Shown piece by piece: positions 2,254 to 15,983 of a DNA stretch of 28,829 nt (its first letter is position 1; each line of letters starts with the position of its first letter). The DNA comes from a virus: positions 1 to 28,829 of IMG/VR virus record IMGVR_UViG_3300021961_005430, one strand, 5' to 3'. The notes below the pieces were generated by a model that saw only the letters and a program-made list of their open reading frames with translations, searched no databases and was not told the DNA's origin. Made by a program: the position numbers and the translations under genes.

Positions 2254-2758
2254 ATTGAAGATCTTCGTCTGTGTTTTGACACCATTCCCATACGCTGTAT
2301 TTCATATGTAACGTATGGAATTCTTTGCTTGGAGCATAGTCATGCGTCATTATGAAGTCGTGTGCTTTGAGATGAGGGGCGTATAAATGAAATTCTTTGA
2401 CCTTATCGCCGCCATCTGTGAGTAATAGGACTTTCTTGTCAGACTGTAATGCTTGTATGATTTCATTATAGCCTTCACCGTCCCATGCTGATTTTTCTCT
2501 GAAATCGAAGGGAGGAGTAATTCCCATGTGATTCTTTATATCGTAAGTACAAAAGGTAAAGTTATATTCCTTTGACAGCTCGTGTACGTACAAGGACAAA
2601 CCGCCTTCGCTTGTGCCTATTTCAATGACGGTATCGAATTGTTCCTTTTCAAAAAACGCTGGGAAGTAATCGAATATTCTGTGGTTTTGCTGTGTAGGAT
2701 ATCCTTTGTAGATGAATCTGCCTCTACGTGAGCAAGTGTAATTATGATATTTCAACAA
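2177..2758 (-). CDS. class I SAM-dependent methyltransferase-like protein
   Basis: About 193 aa. VIEIGTSEGGLS is the glycine-rich SAM-binding motif I, preceded by a basic N-terminal segment and followed by CTYDIKN (motif II-like acid) and LLTDGG. The overall pattern recalls the cephalosporin hydroxylase/O-methyltransferase type (Methyltransf_24 or CmcI-like), in which small molecules or sugars are O-methylated. The frame is open up to a TTG at 2797, but an AAGGGAG ribosome-binding sequence sits 9 nt before the TTG at 2758, so I start there; this overlaps the upstream EEP-like gene by 17 nt. The substrate is unknown; a sulfotransferase-like neighbour suggests a shared modification task. Confidence 0.6.
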   Translation of the reverse strand: MLKYHNYTCSRRGRFIYKGYPTQQNHRIFDYFPAFFEKEQFDTVIEIGTSEGGLSLYVHELSKEYNFTFCTYDIKNHMGITPPFDFREKSAWDGEGYNEIIQALQSDKKVLLLTDGGDKVKEFHLYAPHLKAHDFIMTHDYAPSKEFHTLHMKYSVWEWCQNTDEDLQYEKYGLNKSEWADEFINVAWSCFSK

Positions 2759-3419
2759 CAGGTATATCTCCCTTCGGTTCGTCAAACCAAGCCTCAACAG
2801 GATGGTGTCCTACATGATTCTCGCCAAGCCAATGAACCTTCTCATATTGTATTGACTTACCGGCTGACATTATCCAAGTCAATACCTGTTTTGGTTCTCC
2901 GGGCTTTGAAAAATTAGCCTGACTGTTTTCTATTTTCGTCCATGGCTGGAAGAAAGGTGATGCGTTATAAGGCATTTTTAAATTACAATGATTAAGATCG
3001 AGATGAGTGTCACCGACAGCAATATCGAAGTCAAGTTTCAATAATTTTATGAAGTAATCTATATGAGAACCTTTCGGTCTAAACGGAGGCAGAAAATTGA
3101 CATAGACACAATTTCTGAATACCATTCGCTGATATATAGTGGATTGTGATTTGTCTTTTTGTGAAATGCTTCCTTTGGGAATCATTTCTTTAACTCGTGG
3201 ATTAGTCTCGAACCTGAGACCTTTTGTTGCTGTCAACAAACCATCGGCATCCTCTCCTTCTGTTTGAGGATGCCACCAAATAACGTACCCCAACTCATCT
3301 CGTATCTTTTCAGCAAGAACAAGAGGACATCTCTGCATATAGATAATATGGTGTGAGCCGTTGAAAATGTCTTTGTGTAAATGCTCGCTGTGATTAGCGT
3401 TCCACGAGATAAGTTTCAT
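2742..3419 (-). CDS. divergent endonuclease/exonuclease/phosphatase (EEP) fold protein
   Basis: 225 aa. It opens with MKLISWNAN, the classic first strand of the EEP fold with the catalytic Asn at residue 7, contains GDTHLD (Asp137, His139; usually GDFN or GDxH) and ends with GHHPVEAWF (His205/206; usually SDHxPV). The family hydrolyses phosphodiester or phosphomonoester bonds in DNA, lipids or nucleotides. The usual metal-binding Glu of the second motif (LQE) appears to be replaced: the matching place reads YMQR (27-30). It may therefore be catalytically altered, or my alignment may be off. Its ATG directly follows the TAA of the 37-aa gene (TAAATG), implying translational coupling. Confidence 0.5.
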   Translation of the reverse strand: MKLISWNANHSEHLHKDIFNGSHHIIYMQRCPLVLAEKIRDELGYVIWWHPQTEGEDADGLLTATKGLRFETNPRVKEMIPKGSISQKDKSQSTIYQRMVFRNCVYVNFLPPFRPKGSHIDYFIKLLKLDFDIAVGDTHLDLNHCNLKMPYNASPFFQPWTKIENSQANFSKPGEPKQVLTWIMSAGKSIQYEKVHWLGENHVGHHPVEAWFDEPKGDIPVVEIS

Positions 3420-3533
3420 TTAATATATCAAACCGTAGGTAATACACCAAAGTTCAAGGAAGCCTCTGTACATAAGCCAACAAGCAAATGCCCCGAGTGT
3501 TGCGTAACTAATACGCCTTGCTGTATCCAACAT
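3420..3533 (-). CDS. 37-aa membrane peptide overlapping the receptor gene end
   Basis: Short frame MLDTARRISYATLGAFACWLMYRG... ending ITYGLIY. A basic N-terminus is followed by one hydrophobic, aromatic-rich segment (about residues 9-37), so a single-pass inner-membrane peptide is likely. The ATG at 3533-3531 has a GGGAG ribosome-binding sequence 8 nt upstream, inside the last codons of the TonB-dependent receptor gene (26-nt overlap), and its stop abuts the next ATG. These couplings fill an otherwise empty gap and are the main support. Function unknown; phages often use such peptides for superinfection exclusion or lysis timing. Confidence 0.45.
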   Translation of the reverse strand: MLDTARRISYATLGAFACWLMYRGFLELWCITYGLIY

Positions 3534-4896
3534 AAAATTGTCTCCCACCGAGTTCATAATTCGGCATAATCTCGTAATTATTATCAAACACATCTTGTAA
3601 TGTGAAGTACCAGTTATTTATACGGTGCGTCAGATCAACTGTGTTTACACCGAGGTCAGTCCATGTCCATGATGCCCACTTGTATTGTATCTTTGCTCTG
3701 TACTCTGCTATGTAAGGTTGATCTGAATCTGTGTAGCCAAGTGTCAACCAATCGTTGCTGTAGCGTAGTCCTTGTGTGCTGTAAGAACCTGTGTTTACAA
3801 ACTGTGCCAGCTCCCAATCGTAGTTTATTCCTTCTTTGAAGTCATATCTAAATGCTGAGAAGTTACCATAACCTATATCAATGCCAATAGACTCCTCTGG
3901 ATCTAACAATGGATTCGCTGCTACCCAAGCATCGCCTTCCATTTCATAGTCAGTAGGACGTCTATAACCTGAGCCAATACCCATTGAAAACTCGTCTACT
4001 TGTATACCTACTCGTGCTACAGCGTGTCCGTCTATTACTCGTGCTGAAAGCTGCAATTCATCAAAGGGCTGATACAGTGCATATGCTTCTTCACCATTGT
4101 TATATGTGACGCCTACAGTCCAGTCATTGTATGTATTACGTGCATCAAAGTACACGTTGTCTGCTTTTGATCGATATGTCTTTTCACCGTCAGCATAGAA
4201 ATCAAGATAATTCCAAGAGTAACCTAATGTAAAGTTATCATTCCTAAATGACAGATTACCGGTTGTTCCTTTCTGCTCACAATCATCGGTGCCCCAACAG
4301 TCATCATAATCGTAACTGTAGTCTGTGATTGCTAATGATATGTGTTCATCTTTGTAACGTGCTGTGAAGTTCTCGTACAGGTCTCGCTCGTTGTTTGTAG
4401 TCATTACAGAACCATTGTCACCATAGGCATAAGAGAGATTAAAGTTCTCTACAGAGCCTGACAGCAGTGCTGAGTCAGTGCCTGCTCGTACGGTGTAACC
4501 TGGAGTGATATTGTCCTCAATGAATACAGTTCCGCCAAGAGAGCCTGAACCATACAATGTACTGTTAGCTCCGTGTGATACTGTCACAAGTTCCTGGCCA
4601 GTGGGAATAATGTGGCCGAAGTCATACCAGCCTGTGCTGGGATCATTGACAGGCATACCGTTACGATACACCGTGGTGTGAATAGTTTGTGCTCCTCGCT
4701 CACGGAAACCAGCAAAACCACCCATACCACCTTGAGTGAATGGCTGGTCAATGCTGATGGTTTCGATAAGAGAGAAGTCTAACTGCGTGTCTGTTGTAAT
4801 ACTATCTGTTACTGAACCTAATACTACAATTTCCTCAATCTGCTGTGCCTGTACTACGGAGGTTGTCAGCAAACCCATTACAAAATACTTCTTCAT
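3508..4896 (-). CDS. TonB-dependent outer-membrane receptor (short form), phage-encoded
   Basis: 462 aa. Residues 1-17 are a signal peptide (MKKYF, hydrophobic core, VQA cleavage site). EEIVV (21-25) is a TonB box. The plug spans about 28-126 with RERGAQ (65-70), YRNGMPVND (77-85) and STLYGSGSLGGTVFI (112-126), all hallmark TonB-dependent receptor plug motifs. Residues 127-462 are a beta-barrel-type sequence (alternating aromatic/polar, many Y, W and N) ending GRQFYVGYSKAY with the terminal aromatic residue used by the BAM complex. It is shorter than usual (650-800 aa), so the barrel has short loops or fewer strands. In the family it imports siderophores, cobalamin or glycans using TonB. Start chosen at 4896: AAGGAG lies 5 nt upstream and the start sits 1 nt after the DUF2061 stop; the in-frame ATG at 4950 would prepend a polar stretch before the signal peptide. 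Confidence 0.85.
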   Translation of the reverse strand: MKKYFVMGLLTTSVVQAQQIEEIVVLGSVTDSITTDTQLDFSLIETISIDQPFTQGGMGGFAGFRERGAQTIHTTVYRNGMPVNDPSTGWYDFGHIIPTGQELVTVSHGANSTLYGSGSLGGTVFIEDNITPGYTVRAGTDSALLSGSVENFNLSYAYGDNGSVMTTNNERDLYENFTARYKDEHISLAITDYSYDYDDCWGTDDCEQKGTTGNLSFRNDNFTLGYSWNYLDFYADGEKTYRSKADNVYFDARNTYNDWTVGVTYNNGEEAYALYQPFDELQLSARVIDGHAVARVGIQVDEFSMGIGSGYRRPTDYEMEGDAWVAANPLLDPEESIGIDIGYGNFSAFRYDFKEGINYDWELAQFVNTGSYSTQGLRYSNDWLTLGYTDSDQPYIAEYRAKIQYKWASWTWTDLGVNTVDLTHRINNWYFTLQDVFDNNYEIMPNYELGGRQFYVGYSKAY

Positions 4897-4897
4897 A

Positions 4898-5119
4898 TCA
4901 CTCCTTAATTGTTGTTTTTCCCCACTGAATTCTGTTCCATACCTGGTCAAAGATATAAAACATGAAGGTGTTTACTATTGCTGCTGCTCCTGCAAATGCA
5001 AGTCCGCCTTGCCAAGAGCCTGTCATGTACCAACCAAAGCCCGCGTTGCTAAATGTAATCCATACTCTCCAGGTAACAAGTTTGGCGAGGCCTCGTTTCT
5101 GTGTCTCTATGTATTTCAT
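4898..5119 (-). CDS. DUF2061-type small membrane protein
   Basis: 73 aa starting MKYIETQKRGLAKLVTWRVW. It has the DUF2061 pattern: basic N-terminus with KRGLAKxxTWR, a first hydrophobic segment (about 20-32), a Gly/Ala-rich second segment (38-58) and a terminal YxFDxVWNRIxWG motif. Members are inner-membrane proteins of unknown role and recur in marine T4-like phages. The ATG overlaps the TAG of the upstream 60-aa gene, and its stop lies 1 nt before the receptor start, so it is co-translated with the receptor. A link to envelope function is inferred from neighbours only. Confidence 0.7.
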   Translation of the reverse strand: MKYIETQKRGLAKLVTWRVWITFSNAGFGWYMTGSWQGGLAFAGAAAIVNTFMFYIFDQVWNRIQWGKTTIKE

Positions 5120-6367: not shown

Positions 6368-6883
6368 CTACTCGCCATCACAAATTCTCTCTAATATCTC
6401 GTATTCCATCTGCCAGTCTATCTTTTTCATAGTGCGTGGGGACAAGTCTTTGGCCTGTTTGTATGTAATCTCAAGGACCTCACTGATAAAACCTTTTGCT
6501 AAAGGATACTGTACTTTCCAGGCCTCTTTCTCCCATGGCTGCTTACTATAAGCAGTTTCAGTATGATCTACACCATTCCAATAAGATTTATTGTACTTAT
6601 ATACCAACTCACCTGTAACATATTGCTTCAGATGTGTCATCTCATGTGCTAAGTATGAAAGGTATTCATACAAAGAGCCTCTGTTATGAAGCTCTATCTT
6701 GTATGAATCCTTTTCCAATTTATCACAATAACCAACAACATCTTCCTTGATATAGTTACCGATAACAATATCAATCCAAAGCACACGCTTTCTGGGGAGG
6801 AGTTCCTTGACAAAATATCGAGTCGCATCCTCCGTCAGATTGCGCTGTGTTTTAGTTCCACCCTCAAGGGATATTAGGATCAC
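6368..6883 (-). CDS. HExxH zinc metallopeptidase-like protein
   Basis: 171 aa with HEMTH (80-84), the zinc-binding HExxH signature, in the context YLAHEMTHLKQY; a Glu downstream in QPWEKEAW (116-122) could be the third ligand. The size and helix context recall SprT-like or other small phage metallopeptidases. The target is unknown. Start is GTG (6883-6881) with AAGGAAT upstream, overlapping the TGA of the HNH gene as GTGA. No signal peptide, so presumably cytoplasmic. Confidence 0.65.
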   Translation of the reverse strand: MILISLEGGTKTQRNLTEDATRYFVKELLPRKRVLWIDIVIGNYIKEDVVGYCDKLEKDSYKIELHNRGSLYEYLSYLAHEMTHLKQYVTGELVYKYNKSYWNGVDHTETAYSKQPWEKEAWKVQYPLAKGFISEVLEITYKQAKDLSPRTMKKIDWQMEYEILERICDGE

Positions 6884-7296
6884 TTTTTATTCCTTGGATT
6901 CCCTATTGAACGGTTCTTAGAAGCACACATATATTCCAAATTAGAAAGACTGTTGTCTTCCTTGTTTCCGTTCTTGTGATGCACATCAGTCATCTTAGCA
7001 GTCAAAAGTTTACGGACTGCTGCAGGGGTCTTCTTCCAATCCGACGCACTAATATCATTAGGGCGCCTCTCCTCTTGGGGAATGAATGTTGAAGCTACTA
7101 CTTGATGAACCGGCACTGTGGTTTTGGTGCCATTATTAAGAACAAGACCAACCTTTGGATAAGCACATCTACCACTGACACATGGGCTCATCTCCCTAAC
7201 AGAAAAGATCTGTCCCTCGGTTGATACATAATAACTGTTCTGTACCTCACCTTTGAATACTAAAGGTTTGATTTTATTGAAGTCAATATTACTCAT
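6880..7296 (-). CDS. HNH endonuclease with NUMOD4-like N-terminus
   Basis: 138 aa. The C-terminal part holds the HNH core: DVHHKNGNKEDNSLSNLEYM (104-123) with His106/107, Asn109 and Asn119. The N-terminal YYVSTEGQIFSV (22-33) matches the NUMOD4/AP2-type segment seen in free-standing phage homing endonucleases. Such enzymes nick or cut DNA and promote their own spread between related phages. It overlaps both neighbours by ATGA/GTGA junctions, so it is well embedded in the operon rather than inserted with its own signals. Confidence 0.8.
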   Translation of the reverse strand: MSNIDFNKIKPLVFKGEVQNSYYVSTEGQIFSVREMSPCVSGRCAYPKVGLVLNNGTKTTVPVHQVVASTFIPQEERRPNDISASDWKKTPAAVRKLLTAKMTDVHHKNGNKEDNSLSNLEYMCASKNRSIGNPRNKK

Positions 7297-8699: not shown

Positions 8700-9980
8700 A
8701 TGGCCGATGATACTTCATATGCTGAGTCAGCTCAAGCGCTATTTTGTGCTATGGCAGACTATTTAGGCAAATCAGAAACAACAAAGCTAATGGATATAAA
8801 AAAGTATCCAGATCTCGATTCCTTAATGGAAAACAATACACTTAAAAAAGCTATGGATAAATCATATCCTCGAATCTATACCCACTATAAAGGCGGTGCT
8901 AAATTTTCATTAGATCAAATAACAGAATGGTTGGGCGACCCCAAAAATAAAAAATGGTATACTTCTACAGTTCTAATCGCCAAGAAGATGATGGAAGAGA
9001 TAGCCTCAATAGATACAGACCCCAAAGGTAAGTTTAAAAACATTGAGTCTGCAGACTTTCAGAATTTATATTATTTTAGAGGTGATGATGAAGTAATGAC
9101 CAACATAGAAGCACTTTTTAAAATAGCAAATGAGGCTGATGTGGTTGCAGTAGGAGGCACCATGAAGTTCGGTGACGTTAATAAATGGTCGCCTGCTGAT
9201 ATATACTTTGGTAGCACAAAAGCTAAAAATAAAATAAAAGCAACAATAAAAGAATACAGCACACCAAAAATTAAAAAGGCTTTCAGTTTTACAATGTTAA
9301 ATAGTATGATGGGTGATCTTATTGATTCCGGTGATTTACTACCACTATCACTGAAACAAGCTGCTGGTTCAGTAACCATTAAAAAGGTCAACTTTGTGAG
9401 AGCAGAGGAAGAAAAATATATAAACAGCCTGAAAATAACAAAAATTCTCTGGACTCCTTATAAAGTATTGCCTTTTGAAAAATGGCGGGCTATAACAAAA
9501 ACTCAAAGACAGCCAAGAGACCTACAGGTAAAAATATCGGTGGGTAAGGTTACTGGCACATTAAAGTTTAGACATGATCCTTCAGGTATGAAATACTTAG
9601 CAGAGTATATACCTGATAGAGGTAACGCAAGAGAAGGGCAGATAGGTTCAGCTGATCTTATATCTAAGGTTATGGGAACCTTAGATACAACTGCTGCGGC
9701 TAAGTTCAAACGTGAATATGATAAAGCATTCTTAAAATTTAAAGATGAGATGAAAACTTTGACTCCACAAAAACAAGCATTATCTAAAATTAACCCTGGA
9801 CAAGATAACAAATTCAATTGGGCAAGAGGTAATGCGAGTGCAACAACAATAATGGCAGCGACTGGTCCTGTGCTAATGGAATTTTTTAAAAGCAAAAACG
9901 GATTGAAGTTTGCAAAATTAGTATTTGAATATAGCACATCAAGATCTATCGCTTCAGGAAAATTTGTAATAGCTAAGTAA
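8700..9980 (+). CDS. unknown 426-aa phage protein
   Basis: Starts MADDTSYAESAQALFCAMAD after AGGAG (6 nt spacing). The central part contains GDVNKWSPADIYF followed about 55 residues on by GDLLPLSLKQAAG; the spacing of an Asp after Pro and a later S-L-K strand recalls PD-(D/E)xK nuclease-type cores, but the acidic residue before the Lys is missing, so I do not assign the fold. The rest is Lys-rich and helical. It is the first of only two plus-strand genes, has a late-type box, overlaps the NUMOD3 gene by 1 nt, and is flanked on the left by repeat debris. It may be a transferred cassette; function unknown. Confidence 0.6.
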   Translation: MADDTSYAESAQALFCAMADYLGKSETTKLMDIKKYPDLDSLMENNTLKKAMDKSYPRIYTHYKGGAKFSLDQITEWLGDPKNKKWYTSTVLIAKKMMEEIASIDTDPKGKFKNIESADFQNLYYFRGDDEVMTNIEALFKIANEADVVAVGGTMKFGDVNKWSPADIYFGSTKAKNKIKATIKEYSTPKIKKAFSFTMLNSMMGDLIDSGDLLPLSLKQAAGSVTIKKVNFVRAEEEKYINSLKITKILWTPYKVLPFEKWRAITKTQRQPRDLQVKISVGKVTGTLKFRHDPSGMKYLAEYIPDRGNAREGQIGSADLISKVMGTLDTTAAAKFKREYDKAFLKFKDEMKTLTPQKQALSKINPGQDNKFNWARGNASATTIMAATGPVLMEFFKSKNGLKFAKLVFEYSTSRSIASGKFVIAK

Positions 9981-10477
9981 TGAAGTCTTATTTTATATTC
10001 AACACCAGAGATGGCTACTGTTTAGTAGAAGCAAAAGACGTAGATAAGCTACCCAAACCAAGAGAGCTTATCCGTCGTGCTAATGCTGTTGAGGTGTTGC
10101 GTGAGTATGCTGAGAAGGAAGGCATTGAGTTTGCTGTCGATAAAGCACGTAAGCGCAGTAAACACACACAGGAGACAAAGGATAAGATCAGTGCTGCTGT
10201 CAAGGCCAATCACGGACACAAGGATGGGTTAAAAGAATCACACCGCCTAAAGATTAAAAAGAGTAGAACAGGACAGAACAGAGGCGAAGATAACAACTTC
10301 TATGGAAAGAAACATTCTTATACTACAAAACTAAAAATGTCCAAGACAAGATTAGCAAGAGGTAAGTACAAATATATTTGTAACCCTGAGGGCTATACTG
10401 CTATACCAGAGAATGATCCTGTGCCTGAAGGCTATCAGTTAGGAACAATCTATGATCCTTATAAACCCACTGATTAG
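9980..10477 (+). CDS. NUMOD3-motif DNA-binding protein, homing-associated
   Basis: 165 aa. HTQETKDKISAAVKANHG (about 62-79) and NFYGKKHSYTTKLKMSKTR (about 106-124) are NUMOD3-type repeats, the modular DNA-binding helices normally attached to GIY-YIG or HNH homing nucleases. No catalytic domain is present: the N-terminal 60 residues (SYFIFNTRDGYCLVEAKD) are a beta strip and helix I do not recognise. It starts in the stop of the 426-aa gene (TAATG) and ends 4 nt into the Fe-S carrier gene on the other strand (tail-to-tail). Possibly a nuclease remnant or the targeting partner of the upstream protein. Confidence 0.65.
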   Translation: MKSYFIFNTRDGYCLVEAKDVDKLPKPRELIRRANAVEVLREYAEKEGIEFAVDKARKRSKHTQETKDKISAAVKANHGHKDGLKESHRLKIKKSRTGQNRGEDNNFYGKKHSYTTKLKMSKTRLARGKYKYICNPEGYTAIPENDPVPEGYQLGTIYDPYKPTD

Positions 10478-10800
10478 ACTGTAAACGAAACTCCACACCC
10501 ACAAGTACCGACAGCATTTGGATTGGACAACTGAAAGCTACTACCCATGATGTCTTCTTTGTAATCTAACGTGCTTCCTACTACATAACTATACGAAAGG
10601 CTATCTACTAATACTAAGTTATCTATTATAGTATCATCTGCCTGAGGTTCTTCTATTGAAAAGCCGTACTGAAAACCCGAACAACCTCCTCCGTGTACAT
10701 AGACTCGCAATAGCTTGTCTCCGTCTTTAAGAGAAGCTGCTTTGTTTTTTGCATTTTCTGACAAGATTAATGCTTGAGGGGTGAATGATTCAACTGACAT
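10474..10800 (-). CDS. A-type iron-sulfur cluster carrier (IscA/ErpA/HesB family)
   Basis: 108 aa from the ATG at 10800. The three cluster-binding Cys are all present: Cys40 in HGGGCSGFQYGF and Cys100/Cys102 in VGTCGCGVSF, close to the positions of E. coli IscA. The family accepts or delivers Fe-S clusters to apo-proteins in the cytoplasm. Length is typical. I prefer this start (MSVESFTPQALILS, the usual family beginning) over the in-frame ATG at 10827. It overlaps the upstream GNAT gene by 11 nt. No other Fe-S assembly gene is visible, so it would work with host SUF/ISC machinery. Which client it serves in infection is not evident. Confidence 0.9.
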   Translation of the reverse strand: MSVESFTPQALILSENAKNKAASLKDGDKLLRVYVHGGGCSGFQYGFSIEEPQADDTIIDNLVLVDSLSYSYVVGSTLDYKEDIMGSSFQLSNPNAVGTCGCGVSFTV

Positions 10801-11272
10801 CGTATTCAAAGTTATCCGTTTCTTCATTATCTGATATTAGCTTAGCCCCATTACTTAAATGAAACTTTGTAGCTAATTTTGTTTTGGGTGACATTGTAAC
10901 AACACGAGGAGACTTCTGCCCAGTGCGTTTAATTTCTTTTTTTAGATTATTCAACAACCCGTTAAGCAGTGTACGTCCTGCTCCTTTACCGTAAGACCAA
11001 ATAGTATAAGGAACCATGAATGCCTGTGTAGGCTTTTCTGCATAAGGTATCATTGACAGTTCTGCTTCAGTAGTGGGTATGCTAAACCCGTTGGCTATAC
11101 ATACAATAGCTACCATCTTACCTTCTCCTGTTTGCGAATCAAGATCAACTAAACCATATGTTCGTCTACCAAACTCATGGTTAATTCTGAAGTCTGTGGG
11201 CAAATGAGGACGAACAGGATCGTCATCTATATATTGATCTAACATCTCTTTTGTCATTTCAATTATTTGCAT
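10790..11272 (-). CDS. GNAT-type acetyltransferase-like protein
   Basis: 160 aa. YGKGAGRTLLNGLLNNLKKE (about 104-123) resembles GNAT motif A (Q/RxxGxG/A acetyl-CoA pyrophosphate loop followed by a helix), and KFHLSNGAKLI near the end matches the motif B FYxxxGF-type segment. The first part (beta strands VAIVCIANGF and AFMVPYTIW) fits the core sheet. The substrate is unknown; similar proteins occur in T4-like cyanophages. AGGT lies about 8 nt before the ATG. Adjacent to the 84-aa gene with an 8-nt gap. Confidence 0.6.
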   Translation of the reverse strand: MQIIEMTKEMLDQYIDDDPVRPHLPTDFRINHEFGRRTYGLVDLDSQTGEGKMVAIVCIANGFSIPTTEAELSMIPYAEKPTQAFMVPYTIWSYGKGAGRTLLNGLLNNLKKEIKRTGQKSPRVVTMSPKTKLATKFHLSNGAKLISDNEETDNFEYDVS

Positions 11273-14788: not shown

Positions 14789-15061
14789 TTATAAAACTAT
14801 ACCCGAAGTGAATTCCCGCCATGCTTTTTCAACTGCTGGATTCACCGCCATCACAACTACTACATTGCTACTGTAGAAAGTAGCCTCATTAGGCTCTTCA
14901 ACGCCTGCCATGCTAACACCTTTAGCAAAGCCCATACCCTGTTGGTTATGGACAATCATTCTTGGATCTTCAAGTGTCACACCCTCAGGAGTGTCAGCTA
15001 CAAACTTGCCTACAAACTCACCTACATTTGTGACAACTGATACCACATCATTCTTTTTCAT
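14789..15061 (-). CDS. small Lsm/SH3-like phage protein
   Basis: 90 aa from the ATG at 15061 (AAGGAAAG 5 nt upstream). MKKNDVVSVVTNVGEFVGKF, then TLEDPRMIVHNQQGMGFA, looks like the two-strand start and DPRxIV turn of an Lsm-type barrel, with a C-terminal helix (VEKAWREFTSG). Related small proteins occur in T4-like phages next to the WYL_2 protein. No function known. It overlaps the end of the upstream membrane protein gene by 14 nt. Confidence 0.55.
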   Translation of the reverse strand: MKKNDVVSVVTNVGEFVGKFVADTPEGVTLEDPRMIVHNQQGMGFAKGVSMAGVEEPNEATFYSSNVVVVMAVNPAVEKAWREFTSGIVL

Positions 15062-15983
15062 TATCTTTCCTTTTCTTATCAACTAACCAACTCAATTTAC
15101 TTCTTAGGCTTCTATCTAATCTATTCAACTGTTCTACTTCTGTATCAGACAAATCAGGTACACCGTCAACATCAATACCAAAGTCCTCTGGTTCAGGCTC
15201 TATTGTATTTATTGTCACAAAGGATATTTTCTCACCCCTGCGCTGTAGTAATGACTGATTGGCCGCTATGACAAGCAATATAGCCAACGGGTCAAATACT
15301 AATACTATTAATATTACTACAATTCGTACCGTGTTGTCAAGCATTTCTTCAGGATTTTCATATATAAGTGCCGCAATGTATTTTACCGGGCCAACTTCTG
15401 CTTCTTGCTGTAATGCCATCTGTCTAAGTGGCCGTAAATCATCCTCATACGACTCAATATTCTGGATTGCTTGTTCAATAGAAGCATTGAGGGTTTGTCT
15501 TTCTTCTGCCTGTGAAGCACGGACAGCTAAGGCGCCATCAGGGCCTCGTATCCTGTCGTAGTCCTGTAGAATCTGAACAGAGGCATCGAGACTCGCAATA
15601 ACATTCTCCGCATCAGTTATGACACGCCTTTCATTATTGATTCGCCTTTCAATGCTCTCAATCTGTAGAGCATTGTTGCCTCCCATTGTAATAGTTTGTT
15701 CAATGTGTGCTTTGGATAGGAACCCATAGATTCCCATACTTGTAATAAATGATAAAATAACTACAGATGTAGTCAAATAAACTTTATGTAGTAGTGCTGC
15801 CGTGTCCCAATTACGATATATCCAAGAGGCTGTGACAAGTTTTGCCACTTCAAGGACTATGCCCATTGTTAAGATAGGTACAGGCACTCCTGGAAAGATA
15901 GCCATCAGTCCCACTATTGAGAACCAACCTGCTACTGCTGATACTGCTAATGCTGAACACAGGAGAAGCGCTATGAAAAACAT
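15048..15983 (-). CDS. phage membrane protein with central coiled coil
   Basis: 311 aa. Three N-terminal membrane segments (about 3-30, 35-55, 69-89), a long polar coiled-coil domain (about 105-205, IERRINNERRVITDAENV and related heptads), a fourth membrane segment near 232-252 (VVILIVLVFDPLAILLVIA) and an acidic C-terminal tail. The start MFFIALLLCSALAVSAVAGW is nearly a signature of a membrane protein recurrent in marine T4-like phages, loosely like DUF4407. Role unknown; an inner-membrane role in infection, such as exclusion or lysis control, is possible. GAGGAA lies 8 nt before the ATG; it overlaps the sulfotransferase-like gene end by 13 nt. Confidence 0.65.
   Translation of the reverse strand: MFFIALLLCSALAVSAVAGWFSIVGLMAIFPGVPVPILTMGIVLEVAKLVTASWIYRNWDTAALLHKVYLTTSVVILSFITSMGIYGFLSKAHIEQTITMGGNNALQIESIERRINNERRVITDAENVIASLDASVQILQDYDRIRGPDGALAVRASQAEERQTLNASIEQAIQNIESYEDDLRPLRQMALQQEAEVGPVKYIAALIYENPEEMLDNTVRIVVILIVLVFDPLAILLVIAANQSLLQRRGEKISFVTINTIEPEPEDFGIDVDGVPDLSDTEVEQLNRLDRSLRSKLSWLVDKKRKDNEKE

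Follow-up and report, generated by a model that had tools for sequence, protein, structure and literature searches.

TonB-dependent receptors (TBDRs) are the usual targets of phages. What, then, is a gene for such a receptor doing in viral DNA, and what would its product do for the phage that carries it? The gene considered here lies on a virus fragment, and the DNA analysed was the entire IMG/VR record of 28,829 bases, referred to below as the window.

The receptor gene and its predicted structure

The product of the gene is almost certainly a TBDR, because nearly every testable feature of such receptors was found: a signal peptide, a TonB box, a Plug domain above its curated cut-off (PF07715; 41.4 versus 23.9 bits), and the fold of a 22-strand plugged barrel (Table 1). 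The first-pass annotation, which had read an intact, phage-borne receptor at this position, was borne out. Sixty-seven distinct full-length proteins of the family were aligned (461 to 541 amino acids, median 523), the shortest being those of the window's subfamily. All 67 matched the Plug domain; the barrel sequence family PF00593 was matched by 12 of them, without a match for the window protein. Mean conservation in this alignment was 0.76 for the TonB box, 0.36 for the signal peptide, and 0.50 for the linker that follows the box. Since the box is far more conserved than its flanks, it is not a chance motif.

Table 1. Features of the receptor gene and its immediate neighbours, in window coordinates
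Feature	Positions	Strand	Basis or remark
Phage TonB-dependent receptor (TBDR) gene	3508-4896	(-)	Intact open reading frame, 462 codons, stop included
Signal peptide, residues 1-17, MKKYFVMGLLTTSVVQA	4846-4896	(-)	Called by eye; family N-termini equivalent
TonB box IEEIVV, residues 20-25	4822-4839	(-)	Sequence and family alignment
Plug domain, residues ~29-132	4501-4812	(-)	Pfam PF07715, E 2.3e-10; AlphaFold model
22-stranded barrel, residues 133-461	3514-4500	(-)	AlphaFold model; BtuB fold match
Extracellular loop L2, residues 161-172	4381-4416	(-)	S163, N168, E170, D172 invariant
Loop L3, cysteine pair C200/C206, invariant	4279-4299	(-)	Family alignment and model
Shine-Dalgarno-like AAGGAG within the final codons of the upstream DUF2061 gene	4901-4906	(-)	
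Upstream gene, small membrane protein (DUF2061)	4898-5119	(-)	Stop 1 base before receptor start
Downstream gene, without family match	2742-3419	(-)	In variable cargo region

With the 67-member phage alignment as input, AlphaFold modelled the window protein at a pLDDT of 83.8 and a pTM of 0.83 (four close sequences alone gave a pLDDT of 30). A predicted structure other than a plugged barrel had been named beforehand as a possible refutation; the model is a plugged barrel that matches the fold of BtuB, with a four-stranded plug sheet ahead of 22 barrel strands, counted from secondary structure, from residue 133 on. The model is of the window protein, and the remaining family members are presumably alike, judging from their length. 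The first-pass annotation had also called the barrel, which has ~330 residues here, short. Instead, all 22 strands are present in the model, and it is the loops that are short: L1 to L11 measure about 2, 12, 8, 2, 2, 2, 21, 4, 7, 2, and 14 residues, and the nine extracellular loops for which BtuB ranges were taken from PMC7360065 (L2 to L5 and L7 to L11) total ~72 residues here versus ~143 in BtuB. Since a complete 22-strand barrel is combined with a smaller loop sum, the window protein is predicted to be a complete receptor with pared-down outer loops and no strands missing, rather than a truncated barrel. Conservation of the remaining outer loops L2, L3, L7, L9, and L11 was 0.67 to 0.77, above that of most strands and of the periplasmic turns (mostly 0.33 to 0.43). 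The C200/C206 pair in L3 likely forms a disulfide.

Two finer points of the earlier reading stood in part. The terminal aromatic residue is present in the window (Tyr462) but is unconserved, other members ending in L or P. Co-translation with phage genes had also been proposed; coupling of receptor translation to the DUF2061 gene is plausible because a single base separates the DUF2061 stop from the receptor start and AAGGAG lies in the final DUF2061 codons.

Distribution and genomic setting of the family

A single-protein search of viral contigs recovered four contigs with receptors at 80 to 83% identity, and a more distant relative (42 to 46% identity) was found on a 165-kb contig. Iterated searches enlarged the family to 43, then 202, and then 216 IMG/VR viral stretches; the last round gave 233 pattern matches, of which 216 proved to be true relatives. 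No relative was found among 84,980 prokaryote genomes by peptide-pattern searches confirmed by tblastn, which distant cellular relatives could escape. Nor did 50,697 phage records contain a family member; the sole matches there, at 24 to 26% identity and via BtuB, were AFYI01000005.1 and AGRM01000004.1 (L205), which are Salmonella chromosome contigs misfiled among phage records. Plasmid records gave three matches, all Enterobacterales and at most 28% identical. The family is virus-only in the collections searched and apparently virus-restricted. It is under purifying selection, with pairwise dN/dS values of 0.08 to 0.30 among pairs with measurable divergence.

A literature search, with subscription journals mostly outside its coverage, found no published description of these receptors, and this miniature family is apparently undescribed. 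Databases are not entirely without phage TBDRs, however. A SusC-like receptor from an uncultured marine phage (BFVD A0A8D9FQQ5) is likewise phage-annotated as TonB dependent, but it has 805 residues, is 10% identical to the window protein, superposes poorly on it (TM 0.51), and belongs to another lineage. Similarly, phrog_5687 is weakly matched by 52 of 67 members, covering residues 61 to 165 of the window protein, but its profile is much longer (760 positions) and has no function assigned.

The T4-like label given in the first-pass annotation holds, because the window genes include RNase H, class I ribonucleotide reductase, and ThyX and because 7 of 14 large contigs with the receptor carry gp23, which is absent from the annotated genes of the 28.8-kb window. 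A single Plug match occurs in every one of these 14 contigs and none in 16 control contigs. A TBDR gene in a T4-like genome had been called unexpected; the gene is in fact widespread in such phages, and the proposed search of viral contigs for it beside T4-like markers was positive, with T4-like replication-gene neighbourhoods among the 216 stretches. The receptor is found in a handful of conserved T4-like gene orders. In one it follows UvsX and precedes a UvsW-type helicase; in another it follows gp47, gp46, peptide deformylase, and a ClpP-like protease and precedes a peptidase-CobS pair and gp45; in others it lies ahead of RNase H or near gp32. Within the window's subfamily, the receptor has three locations: that seen in the window, one next to gp32 (L002 and L003), and one next to a primase-like gene (L005). 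In L007 and L009, close sisters of the window with a nearby HAD-like protein >90% identical, DUF2061 is followed by no receptor. The receptor gene is therefore cargo, moving between T4-like phages and long-lived in some lineages. The product of the gene downstream of it in the window had no relatives in a search of viral contigs.

Other genes and records were noted in the course of the analysis. A membrane/coiled-coil protein encoded at 15048-15983, far from the receptor in the window, has a homologue (cluster 32, e.g., L152 6644-7996) directly upstream of the receptor in a different phage group. In ~20 loci of the UvsX/UvsW group, the receptor is immediately preceded by a gene for a 371-amino-acid protein (L183 912-2024), which had no Pfam, PHROG, or NCBIfam match. 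The window also encodes an IscA/ErpA-like iron-sulfur carrier protein (10474-10827) and HNH endonuclease and NUMOD3 motif proteins (6880-7296 and 9980-10477), which are likely homing-type elements. The tRNAs, checked for host clues, were few. Two carriers, L154 (2786546798) and L159 (2788500184), have IMG identifiers unlike metagenome ones and, should they be single-cell or isolate genomes, could point to the host.

Kinship to BtuB and the vitamin B12 question

By both profile and fold, the best match to the phage receptor is BtuB (TIGR01779; PDB 2gsk and 1nqh). Among PDB sequences, the family profile matched BtuB at E 1.4e-24, covering the plug and the C-terminal half, ~19 orders of magnitude better than any other chain. 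The closest solved fold by Foldseek was BtuB in complex with TonB (VIA-align superposition, Z 33.8, rmsd 2.6, 443 residues aligned), and the top 15 entries of the fold list are all BtuB structures or other B12 transporters. The two receptors share the 22-stranded plugged barrel, the TonB box, the plug apices, the C-terminal region, and, in part, the acidic positions of L2. In contrast to BtuB, with its 614 amino acids, the phage receptor has 462, nearly lacks L4, L5, L8, and L10 (L4, L5, and L10 are ~2 residues in the model), carries the cysteine pair in L3, is virus-borne, and has no riboswitch. Identity to BtuB is ~17 to 20%, on a long branch in the tree, and owing to this deep divergence the substrate is unreadable from homology. 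In NCBIfam, TIGR01779 (TonB-B12) was matched by 54 of 67 members and PRK10641 by 29 of 67, counted without comparison to the curated cut-offs; the window protein had no NCBIfam match at E 0.001 and so falls outside the curated BtuB models. BtuB is thus the nearest known family, and the phage receptor may function like it, but we do not class it as BtuB, because the window protein falls outside those models and a riboswitch is lacking.

In the alignment with BtuB, which is uncertain in the loops at such a distance, D193 corresponds to E170 and D195 to D172, both invariant in the family, and Y579 aligns with Y447, conserved in at least 90% of members. Of the positions that we take to form the BtuB calcium cage, these two acidic ones align, and no clean match was obtained for the rest. 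In BtuB, five aspartates near the B12 site form a cage with two calcium sites, cobalamin makes its strongest contacts with L3 and L11, and L2 to L5 are key to binding (PMC7360065). Vitamin B12 or a corrinoid is the best single guess for the substrate of the phage receptor, offered tentatively, with haem or another metal complex otherwise.

It is possible, if somewhat doubtful, that the receptor imports a different substrate—haem, a zinc or copper complex, or a siderophore—and resembles BtuB through common ancestry, a reading that rivals B12 and not transport as such. Just over half of the members (35 of 67) also weakly match the haemoglobin/transferrin receptor model, and haem, zinc, and copper receptors come next in the fold list (Z 25 to 29). 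However, BtuB structures clearly lead that list (Z 30 to 34), as BtuB leads the PDB profile search.

Tests of B12 through genomic context did not confirm it as the substrate. No cobalamin riboswitch was matched by Rfam in the window or in 22 related loci; by comparison, the Salmonella btuB record has one upstream. No B12-dependent (NrdJ) ribonucleotide reductase scored over the cut-off in 14 records. Two gene associations were considered as evidence for B12 and rejected. In two separate lineages, the gene that immediately follows the receptor encodes a radical-SAM protein with a weak B12-binding domain (L002 2968-4560 and L003 5407-6969, in the window's subfamily, and, separately, L135 to L137); PhpK type is its best NCBIfam match. 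Locally, radical-SAM/B12-binding genes were counted in 8 of 68 distinct loci versus 1 of ~76, but B12-binding radical-SAM genes were not enriched in whole records (6 of 14 carriers versus 4 of 16 controls; p = 0.44). The association was rejected on this control and because most B12-binding domain scores fall under the Pfam cut-off. In one subgroup (L091 12375-13565 and neighbours), a gene for a CobS-like AAA ATPase and its peptidase partner adjoin the receptor; CobS-type accessory genes of marine T4-like phages have possible cobalamin relevance and occur in the same phage group. This adjacency was rejected as inherited old synteny, because cyanophage Syn19 has the peptidase-cobS pair in the same placement, between gp46 and gp45, without a receptor.

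Probable function in the infected cell and rival explanations

On balance, we lean toward a functional, minimised, phage-encoded TonB-dependent outer-membrane importer of BtuB ancestry. The receptor probably imports a nutrient in the infected cell; transport is favoured because both the element for energy coupling, the TonB box, and the ligand-facing parts are conserved. During infection, the protein would be exported by host Sec, folded into the outer membrane by host BAM, and energised by host TonB-ExbB-ExbD, and it would then bring a scarce nutrient into the cell. Of the functional ideas in the first-pass annotation, nutrient supply fits best, given that the TonB box and the binding-face loops are conserved, with B12 as the nutrient unproven; no finding supported the idea that lysed debris is kept from trapping progeny.

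A less likely explanation is superinfection exclusion, in which the phage receptor displaces the host receptor used by competing phages, or takes over its TonB or BAM capacity, and the trimmed loops deny those phages a foothold. Phage surface proteins that bar competitors have precedent, such as T5 Llp on FhuA (structure 8a60, which is in the fold list). The loops are indeed trimmed relative to BtuB (loop ranges from PMC7360065), yet a mask need not keep a TonB box or ligand-facing loops, and both are conserved. PADLOC, which models host defences and so weighs little here, gave no match. Nutrient import and superinfection exclusion are mutually compatible. The trimmed loops of an importer would also leave other phages and bacteriocins little surface to grip. 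We put forward, as a speculative extension of the importer reading, that these virus-only miniature TBDRs may let lytic T4-like phages feed the infected cell a scarce cofactor, possibly vitamin B12, and present a near-loop-free surface to rival phages and bacteriocins.

It is improbable that the protein acts as a decoy that soaks up host TonB and starves TonB-dependent phages or bacteriocins of energy coupling; the TonB box is the best-conserved N-terminal part and the BtuB-TonB complex is the top fold match, but a decoy leaves the conservation of the plug apices and of L2, L3, L7, and L11 unexplained. An assembly chimera at 3.4 to 5.1 kb or host contamination, conceivable in that the window record is a fragment, is refuted for practical purposes because independent contigs carry the receptor: the 80 to 83% identical genes lie in different phage contexts, the 216 viral stretches show conserved synteny and no prokaryote-genome match, carrier contigs have gp23, and HAD and small membrane-protein genes precede the receptor in L064 as they do in the window.

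These genes apparently constitute a new, virus-restricted family of miniature TonB-dependent receptors. The family is large and conserved among phages, and the prokaryote genomes searched lack it, so that a nutrient gate of viral making may be present in infected cells. Whether phages actively take up nutrients through the outer membrane of the cells they infect becomes directly testable with one gene. As a natural minimal TBDR, the receptor may also help to tell the loops needed for transport from those that serve attackers as handles.
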